DNA of 34,267 nt from SAR86 cluster bacterium (GTDB lineage: Bacteria; Pseudomonadota; Gammaproteobacteria; Magnimaribacterales; D2472), in the NCBI GenBank assembly GCA_003331565.1, contig QOPE01000005.1:1-34267 (forward strand). Reading direction: 5' to 3'. The notes beneath the pieces were generated by a model. That model was not told the DNA's origin and made no database searches. It saw nothing but the letters and a program-made list of their open reading frames with translations. Position 1 is the stretch's first letter, and the number at the start of each line of letters is the position of its first letter. Shown here piece after piece: positions 4,948 through 27,342 of this stretch. Position numbers and translations under genes: made by a program.

Positions 4948-5298
4948 GGGGGCGAATTGGGTTCGACGTTTTTATTGGATTCCAAAGCGCATGCCAAGAT
5001 CGTGATAACTCTTGTAAAACATATCACAAAAAATTTAGTTGCAGAAAACGACAACTACGCATTAGCCGCTTAATTGGCTAACCAGTACAATAATTGACTA
5101 TGGTTTGAAGTACTGGAAAATTACATAGTCTAGGGTTTTTTCGGTGCCTTAACGATTAAAATCTTAAATTCTATTTAGGCTAGTATTAAGCATCCTGCTT
5201 TTCGGATCATTAATATGAAATAAAAAGAAAAAGCTAAGCATGTAGAAGTTAGGTTGAAGGACTAACGGACGCGGGTTCAATTCCCGCCGCCTCCACCA
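4948..5298 (+). ncRNA. ssrA: tmRNA (SsrA), one-piece, with encoded CCA
   Basis: 5' GGGGGCGAATTGGGTTCGACG and 3' GGTTCAATTCCCGCCGCCTCCACCA form a 7-bp acceptor stem; tag frame GCA GAA AAC GAC AAC TAC GCA TTA GCC GCT TAA (5041-5073) = AENDNYALAA. Confidence 0.97.
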
Positions 5299-21650: not shown

Positions 21651-21977
21651 TTATATTTTCGAGTTGTCTGATTTAAAAATTCTTGTTTTAACATCGTCTT
21701 TAATTTCATATCCAATACGATCAGCTTTTTTCTTTTTTGGATTCCAAATAGCTAAATTTGAAATAGCAATAGCTGCTTCTTGTTCGACAATGCCTCCGGT
21801 AATACCCATTTGAGGGTTAGGTTTGGTATGTTTTTTTACTAAGTTTAAACCGGTTACAATAGCTTTATTGCCTTTAAGGATTTTTTGCAAAGTGCCTCTT
21901 TTACCCAAATCTTTCCCAGCAATTACTACTACCTCATCACCGCTTATAAACTTAGTTTTTGTATGTAGTGAAGACAT
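21651..21977 (-). CDS. rplX: 50S ribosomal protein L24
   Basis: [45 protein letters not shown]. Confidence 0.97.
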
Positions 21978-25374: not shown

Positions 25375-25670
25375 TAGTTAACACCCTCAAACTGAATTTC
25401 TGAACCTTCTTTTAATGAGACAAAAGCTTTTTTAAAGTTAGATTTTTTATAGGTGCCAAACCTATTTCTTTTATTTTTGCCTTTTACTATTGAAGTGGTA
25501 ACTGATTTGACTTCTACATTAAATAGTTTCTCGACAGCTTTCTTAATTTCTAATTTATTAGCATTAATATTTACTTTAAATACAACCTGATTTTTTTCAG
25601 ATGCAAGCTTTGAAGCCTTCTCAGTGATGTAAGGAGAATCAATTAATGTAAGGATTTTTTCTTGATTCAT
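25374..25670 (-). CDS. rplW: 50S ribosomal protein L23
   Basis: [36 protein letters not shown] 25670 gives an ATGA overlap with the rplD stop. Confidence 0.95.
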
Positions 25671-26278
25671 TTTACCCAAGCCTCTATTAATGAAAGTGCT
25701 TCGGGTGTGATTGCAACCTTGTCAGATCTTAGAAGCACAACGGGATTAATTTCTTTAACAGTTACTACCTCTACATGAGGTATATTCCTTGCTGATAGAT
25801 ATATATTTGTATCCATTTCATCAAGGATGATCAGTACGCTATCAAGACCGGCATCTTTTATAATTTTTGCCATTACCTTTGTTTTAGGAGCCTCTAATGC
25901 AGGCTTAGCCAAACCAATTATTCTTTCTTGCCGATAAAGCTCTGAGAGTATTGAGCGAATAGCAGCTCTATACATTTTCTTATTAATCTTCTTAGAGTAA
26001 TCTCTAGGTACTGCAGCAAAAGGAACACCACCTCCACGCCATATTGGACTTCTAATAGTACCTGCTCTTGCTCTTCCTGTTCCTTTTTGTCTATAAGGTT
26101 TCTTGCCACCACCGCGAACTTCAGATCTAGTTTTTTGCTTGTGAGATCCCTGTCTTGCGCCTGCCAAGAAAGTAACTACTGCCTGATGAACTAAATCTTC
26201 ATTAAAATCCTTTCCAAAAACTGACTCCGGAAGACTAATATCAGTTTTTGATTCACTGTTAACTAAATTAAGCTTCAT
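25667..26278 (-). CDS. rplD: 50S ribosomal protein L4
   Basis: ARQGSHKQKTRSEVRGGGKKPYRQKGTGRARAGTIRSPIWRGGGVPFA. Confidence 0.98.
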   Translation of the reverse strand: MKLNLVNSESKTDISLPESVFGKDFNEDLVHQAVVTFLAGARQGSHKQKTRSEVRGGGKKPYRQKGTGRARAGTIRSPIWRGGGVPFAAVPRDYSKKINKKMYRAAIRSILSELYRQERIIGLAKPALEAPKTKVMAKIIKDAGLDSVLIILDEMDTNIYLSARNIPHVEVVTVKEINPVVLLRSDKVAITPEALSLIEAWVK

Positions 26279-26907
26279 GATGTTTTAACCGAATGAGAAA
26301 GCTTTAATGTCGACCCAGTTGAACCAGGAACAGCTCCCTTGATATAAATTAAGTTATTTTCAATATCAGTTTGAACAACTTCTAAGTTCTGAACAGTTTT
26401 TTGTACGTTACCCATTTGTCCTGACATTTTCTTACCCTTCCAAACCCTCCCAGGTGTTTGACATTGACCAGTGGATCCGTGGGCTCTATGTGATAATGAA
26501 TTACCATGTGTGGCATCTTGCATCCTAAAGTTATGCCGTTTTATAACACCTGCATAACCTTTACCCTTAGATGTACCAGTAACATCAACTTTTTGGCCAG
26601 CTTCAAATACAGAGGCATCAACATGTAAACCTACTTTAAGATCATTAACATCAGATGTACGGAACTCATGAAGGTTTCCTGGGTTAACATTATGTTTTTT
26701 GAAATATTCAGCTTGCGATTTTTTGAGTTTCTTTTTCTTAAAAAACTGCTTAGAAATCACTACAGAACTGTACCCATCTCTATCAGATGTCTTAATATCA
26801 GTAACGAAATTACCCGCAACAGAAACAACCGTTACAGGAATTGAAGTGCCGTCTTCTTGAAAAAGACGTGACATTCCAGCTTTTTTTCCAATTAAGCCTA
26901 TGCTCAA
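26275..26907 (-). CDS. rplC: 50S ribosomal protein L3, TTG start
   Basis: SIGLIGKKAGMSRLFQEDGTSIPVTVV...GKGYAGVIKRHNFRMQDATHGNSLSHRAHGSTGQCQTPGRVWKGKKMSGQMG; TTG at 26907 preceded by AAAGGAG. Confidence 0.97.
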   Translation of the reverse strand: MSIGLIGKKAGMSRLFQEDGTSIPVTVVSVAGNFVTDIKTSDRDGYSSVVISKQFFKKKKLKKSQAEYFKKHNVNPGNLHEFRTSDVNDLKVGLHVDASVFEAGQKVDVTGTSKGKGYAGVIKRHNFRMQDATHGNSLSHRAHGSTGQCQTPGRVWKGKKMSGQMGNVQKTVQNLEVVQTDIENNLIYIKGAVPGSTGSTLKLSHSVKTS

Positions 26908-26913
26908 TTTAAT

Positions 26914-26947
26914 CTCCTTTCTACGGGGCTTTACCCTCTATGGCCGC
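26914..26947 (-). promoter_or_regulatory. Candidate 23S rRNA domain I mimic / r-protein operator over the rplC ribosome-binding site
   Basis: Reverse strand GCGGCCATAGAGGGTAAAGCCCCGTAGAAAGGAG; GGG-UAAAG-CCC hairpin core; resembles the conserved 23S domain I segment, E. coli GCGATACAGGGTGACAGCCCCGTAC (recalled). Confidence 0.6.
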
Positions 26948-26968
26948 TATTGCGTTAAAAAATTCAAA

Positions 26969-27280
26969 TTAGCCTAAGCTAATTTGAACATCTACTCCTG
27001 ATGAAAGGTCAAGCTTCATTAAAGCATCAACCGTTTTATCAGTAGGTTGAACAATATCCATCAACCTTTTATATGTTCTAATCTCATACTGATCTCTTGC
27101 ATCTTTATCTTTGTGAGGTGAAATCAGTACTGTAGTTCTCTCTTTTTTAACTGGCAAAGGAATTGGTCCTTTGACTACAGCTCCAGTCTTCTTTGCAGTT
27201 TCTGAAATAAGTTTTGCAGATGCATCAATCAGCCTATAATCAAAAGCTTTTAAGCGTATTCTTATATTCTGATCTTCCAT
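26969..27280 (-). CDS. rpsJ: 30S ribosomal protein S10
   Basis: [71 protein letters not shown]. Confidence 0.98.
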
Positions 27281-27312: not shown

Positions 27313-27342
27313 ATTCTAGGCCTCCTAAGGGCTATATGTCAA
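27313..27342 (-). promoter_or_regulatory. Putative sigma70 promoter for the S10 operon in the fusA-rpsJ gap
   Basis: Reverse strand TTGACA (27342-27337), 18-nt spacer, TAGAAT (27318-27313); perfect -35. Confidence 0.7.

Follow-up and report, generated by a model that had tools for sequence, protein, structure and literature searches.

The 61-nucleotide (nt) spacer between the ribosomal protein genes rpsJ and rplC of a SAR86 cluster bacterium is almost certainly a reduced copy of helices 18-20 (H18-H20) of 23S ribosomal RNA (rRNA), and thus an rRNA mimic. As judged from its sequence, it is probably an operator at which ribosomal protein L4 would repress rplC, rplD, and the genes downstream through the adjacent ribosome-binding site. 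The spacer lies at positions 26908-26968, minus strand, of a 34,267-nt stretch (contig QOPE01000005.1 of assembly GCA_003331565.1), and this whole stretch is called the window here. An initial annotation, made from the letters of the window, had described the spacer as an imitation of 23S domain I that ends at the rplC Shine-Dalgarno sequence, and had named it a candidate operator for L4 (or L3/L24). The letters and coordinates of the spacer proved correct in a sequence check, the likeness is borne out by reciprocal covariance models, wide conservation, and covariation, and the Escherichia coli domain I stretch that had been used for the comparison agrees with the rrlB gene.

The likeness to 23S rRNA was found in both directions. 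A covariance model built from 31 H18-H20 segments of 23S rRNA and no spacers (model R2, alignment A2) has its top match in the window at the spacer (26960-26913, 27.7 bits, E-value 1.3e-5), and the runner-up reaches 12.7 bits with an E-value of 0.38. The reverse model, built from 16 rpsJ-rplC spacers and no 23S rRNA (model R1, alignment A1), matches 78 of the 369 genomes of the class, and the 30 loci taken comprise 25 23S genes and five rpsJ-rplC spacers. The large-subunit (LSU) rRNA model of Rfam (RF02541), which is independent of our own alignments, places Halomonadaceae spacers at its positions 329-385 with 42-44 bits (E-value about 1e-11), scores that stay under the cut-off of that model, and gives the Oceanospirillum linum spacer 36.7 bits. 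In the numbering computed on the annotated rrlB gene, the element corresponds to nt 295-343 of E. coli 23S rRNA, and the U of its CAUAG (GAUAC in E. coli) to nt 321.

The genome of the window has no assembled 23S gene, and therefore the 23S rRNAs of close relatives were used for the native comparison that the initial annotation had proposed. In this alignment 23S rRNA reads GGCCAUAG-UAGGUGAUAGCCCUGUA and the spacer GGCCAUAG-AGGGUAAAGCCCCGUA, and the native SAR86 23S sequence UAGGUGAUAGCCCU stands against AGGGUnnnAGCCCC in the spacer, a compensated difference of A-U to G-C. In the last hairpin of the site, the 23S rRNAs of this SAR86 family (loci L052-L062) form an A-U pair, whereas at that place the spacer has retained the G-C pair found in other bacteria. 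In Halomonas, the arms of the first hairpin also differ between spacer and 23S rRNA with the pairing kept. The rRNA loops UGGAAA and GAUA have been lost in most spacers, and in the place of the GAAA that is found 3' of H18 in 23S rRNA the spacers have their Shine-Dalgarno region. The element does not qualify as a genuine 23S gene or fragment: it is flanked by rpsJ and rplC, its letters are unlike those of native 23S rRNA, and the pairing is retained. Because the loops were lost and the stems rewritten, selection appears to act on the junction rather than on the loops.

The consensus of the spacers is GUG-UAA-[hairpin]-GGCCAUAG-n-[GGGU..GCCC]-C-GUA-CAC-(Shine-Dalgarno)-start, and in the window it is represented by the following parts:

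26908-26968, minus strand: the rpsJ-rplC spacer, 61 nt
26913-26962, minus strand: mimic of 23S rRNA H18-H20, identified by the best match of the 23S-only model and by 33 genomes of the family
26957-26962, minus strand: U-rich 5' strand of the closing (H18-like) helix, which pairs with the purine-rich 3' strand
26945-26954, minus strand: H19-like hairpin CGC-AAUA-GCG, which covaries across families with C-G and U-A changes
26938-26944, minus strand: junction GCCAUAG, with the U at position 26940 corresponding to E. coli U321, kept in the spacers
26925-26936, minus strand: hairpin GGGU-n-GCCCC, with GGG/CCC in every aligned spacer and a variable loop
26918-26924, minus strand: GUA and the 3' strand of the closing helix (GAAA), from alignment A1
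26914-26918, minus strand: rplC Shine-Dalgarno sequence AGGAG, within or abutting the closing helix (from sequence and fold)

The stems covary across the spacers of relatives, as the initial annotation had suggested examining. In alignment A1, 92% of the cells are paired compared to 33-61% with slid partners, and seven pairs have changed on both sides. For the first three pairs of the first hairpin, whose arms were anchored by sequence only and never by pairing, 163 of 186 are paired in the right register versus 72, 38, and 98 in wrong registers. The H19-like hairpin has a short loop in SAR86 and reaches about 55 nt in other spacers of some families, with its base still paired. The closing helix is rich in G-C pairs in Halomonas and Pseudomonas, and in SAR86 it is built of U-A pairs. 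The apparent invariance of the CC-AUAG core is inflated, because the search patterns had set part of it in advance. Many Pseudomonadales spacers have an additional hairpin, variable in sequence, that directly adjoins the mimic on its 5' side (e.g. in loci L241, L245, L248, and L267-L270) and may belong to the element as well.

Within the SAR86 family of the window the element is present in all 33 genomes in which rplC was found, comprising ten genera, and it is always located between rpsJ and rplC. It is also wide in the Pseudomonadales, the order of Halomonas. The conservation among relatives that the initial annotation had made a check of its proposal is thus found, and the element is more widely spread than that annotation could know. 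With a strict pattern tied to the rplC start, 174 of 392 Pseudomonadales genomes (25 families) are positive. The covariance model additionally detects the family f208 and, in several families, members that the pattern had missed, resulting in at least 26 Pseudomonadales families. All named matches (Halomonas, Vreelandella, Chromohalobacter, Salinicola, Kushneria, Billgrantia, Litchfieldella, and Oceanospirillum) precede rplC. One of the positive families is Pseudomonas as judged from the L3 protein, for which the best PDB matches are 7unr and 6spb, both Pseudomonas aeruginosa entries. Among 299 Pseudomonadota genomes drawn, the strict pattern gave 19 matches, a lower bound, all of them in Gammaproteobacteria. 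Tested members of f11, f220, and f224 gave no match beyond 23S rRNA, and the rpsJ-rplC gap of E. coli, which is 32 nt, does not contain the element. Matches to a loose pattern in Prochlorococcus, archaea, Ferriphaselus, and others turned out to be 23S genes with an AGGAG nearby, and the class-level model matches retrieved from outside SAR86 and Pseudomonadales were either 23S or loci with neither an rplC nor a 23S match. At two loci (L265 and L266, genomes G550 and G684) the rplC reading frame seems to begin further upstream, corresponding to a short N-terminal extension of L3.

Pfam confirms the genes for S10, L3, L4, L23, L2, L14, L24, S14, S8, and EF-G in the window, and the surroundings of the element are built as follows:

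27313-27342, minus strand: promoter-like site directly 5' of rpsJ, TTGACA-18-TAGAAT, a consensus match at 11 of 12 positions
26969-27280, minus strand: rpsJ (S10), the gene preceding the element (PF00338)
26962-26989, minus strand: terminator-like 12-bp hairpin with a U-tract (U6), covering the end of rpsJ and adjoining the mimic
26905-26907, minus strand: rplC start codon TTG, read from the sequence and TTG in most of the SAR86 family of the window
26275-26907, minus strand: rplC (L3), the first gene past the element (PF00297)
25667-26278, minus strand: rplD (L4), encoding the proposed regulator (PF00573, E-value 6.8e-70)
21651-21977, minus strand: rplX (L24), encoding the rival regulator, downstream in the same cluster (PF17136)

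The gaps in the operon had been described as mostly small, which is true for those downstream; the 80-nt gap between fusA and rpsJ had been left out, and it contains the promoter-like site. This site, if used, would allow only a short leader, and a leader like that of E. coli would not fit. The terminator-like hairpin at the end of rpsJ is strong only in some genera of the SAR86 family of the window, and it might set the output of S10 apart from the rest.

The spacers show a conserved RNA structure upstream of ribosomal protein genes and a resemblance to rRNA, as ribosomal protein leaders do, and the copied site is assigned to L4 and L24 from the literature. In the window, in its family, and in the Pseudomonadales spacers the element adjoins the Shine-Dalgarno sequence of rplC. 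It is very probably a cis-regulator of rplC and the downstream genes. The mimic keeps the position equivalent to U321 of E. coli 23S rRNA, where L4 is reported to cross-link. L4 is likely the main ligand because it is the established repressor of the S10 operon in E. coli, and because a 23S fragment holding its site competes with the mRNA leader for L4 (PMC10931766). The action of the element is probably translational and not transcriptional. L4 in excess of free 23S rRNA would bind to the three-way junction on the mRNA and stabilise the closing helix, which abuts or includes the Shine-Dalgarno sequence, so that translation of rplC would stop. The tightly spaced rplD, rplW, rplB, and following genes would fall with rplC by translational coupling, and rpsJ, being upstream and having its own promoter-like site, would escape direct repression. 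In SAR86, where the U-tract is paired to the purine-rich Shine-Dalgarno region, the clamp may close directly there; in Pseudomonas, where the Shine-Dalgarno sequence is found a few nt past the helix, the blockage would be steric. An L4 operator is what we infer as the best explanation, with binding and repression as its predicted steps.

Several observations weigh against an L4 operator of this kind. The folding energy of the window spacer is not significant (z between -0.1 and -0.9), the closing helix is weak in some SAR86 genera, and the native loops that are contacted in the ribosome have been lost from the spacers. Several families of Pseudomonadales do not have the element. In the other three SAR86 families (f2-f4, loci L034-L050) rpsJ and rplC are nearly contiguous and the mimic was not found; 24 of their genomes, searched in full, gave at most one match each, those checked being 23S. 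These lineages must therefore control the operon differently or not at all. In addition, L4 and L24 are reported to bind to one short 23S fragment in the H18-H20 region, and L24 is the main rival ligand. It is unlikely, however, that the same operator has L24 as its ligand, alone or together with L4, in which case expression would respond to L24 or to both early-assembly proteins; rplX is indeed located downstream within the same cluster, but the established regulator of the S10 operon is L4, the element adjoins rplC-rplD ten genes ahead of rplX, and the literature searched gave no L24 autoregulation. Because the copied fragment is reported to hold both proteins, the operator may sense L4 and L24 jointly, and the S10-spc cluster of SAR86 and Pseudomonadales would then be under the control of a decoy assembly intermediate instead of a single protein, although we consider this unlikely. 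L3 is an unlikely ligand since its main 23S rRNA site lies elsewhere.

The spacer could also hold a terminator or a ribonuclease site that sets S10 apart from the rest of the operon, with the likeness to rRNA serving a protein that modulates termination. The terminator-like hairpin with its U6 tract adjoins the mimic in the window, hairpins abut the mimic in many Pseudomonadales, and E. coli L4 also causes attenuation (PMC10931766). However, the U-tract is on the 5' side of the mimic and termination would precede the transcription of the mimic, the Pseudomonas and Halomonas spacers have no U-tract, and it is the Shine-Dalgarno sequence that the mimic adjoins. Termination or processing as the function of the element is thus quite unlikely. 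That the likeness arose by chance, or from a stray 23S fragment inserted without function, is extremely improbable. Although rRNA-like pattern matches elsewhere turned out to be plain 23S genes, the element is fixed at one position across hundreds of genomes and no fewer than 26 families of Pseudomonadales, it is not a copy of the native 23S rRNA as its stems were rewritten with the pairing kept, and the E-values of the models argue against chance. Conservation and covariation already contradict this explanation.

A predicted L4 operator at rplC belongs to a known kind, the ribosomal protein operators with rRNA mimicry; new are its position, the RNA family outside Rfam, and the unusually literal copy. 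The scan of the spacer with Rfam 15 gave chance matches only and none at or above the gathering score. The sole match of that level in the window is a transfer-messenger RNA gene at 4948-5298 on the plus strand. The S10 leader of E. coli shares with the element the operon, the proposed regulator, and a target described as similar to the L4 site on 23S rRNA (PMC10931766). However, it is long, precedes rpsJ, acts on transcription and translation, and resembles rRNA only subtly, whereas the SAR86 element comprises about 50 nt between rpsJ and rplC and copies the rRNA almost literally at the rplC Shine-Dalgarno sequence, a difference in placement that the initial annotation had recognised. With H18-H20 of 23S domain I (part of RF02541) the element has in common the three-way junction, the junction bases, the GGG/CCC hairpin, and GUA, but it is located in an mRNA, its loops are variable, and its H19-like hairpin can have any length. 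The 20 ribosomal protein leaders of Eckert and Weinberg (2020) include an L4 candidate in Archaeoglobi and none for this group and place, and their section on rRNA imitation covers L20, eL15, S15, and S4 but not L4 (PMC7247131). The Archaeoglobi candidate is similar in its proposed ligand and its location upstream of the rplC-rplD genes but belongs to another, archaeal lineage (PMC7247131). The S8 site in the E. coli spc operon also provides repression at an internal cistron instead of the operon start, but with another protein, a 16S rRNA site, and another gene. In the literature searched, which mostly did not extend to subscription journals, a spacer operator before rplC was not found described, and an earlier description is possible.

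The E. coli-type L4 site is not conserved in Pseudomonas (PMC10931766). How the S10 operon is controlled in Pseudomonas and relatives without the E. coli leader is a known gap, to which the element offers a concrete candidate answer, and the candidate operator spans an order that contains well-studied bacteria. Its variants, which are near full length in Halomonas and reduced in SAR86, constitute a natural series of rRNA mimics that shows which portions of the L4/L24 site are required. In a group without the E. coli switch, the element is probably a feedback switch, previously unreported, that acts on ribosome production.
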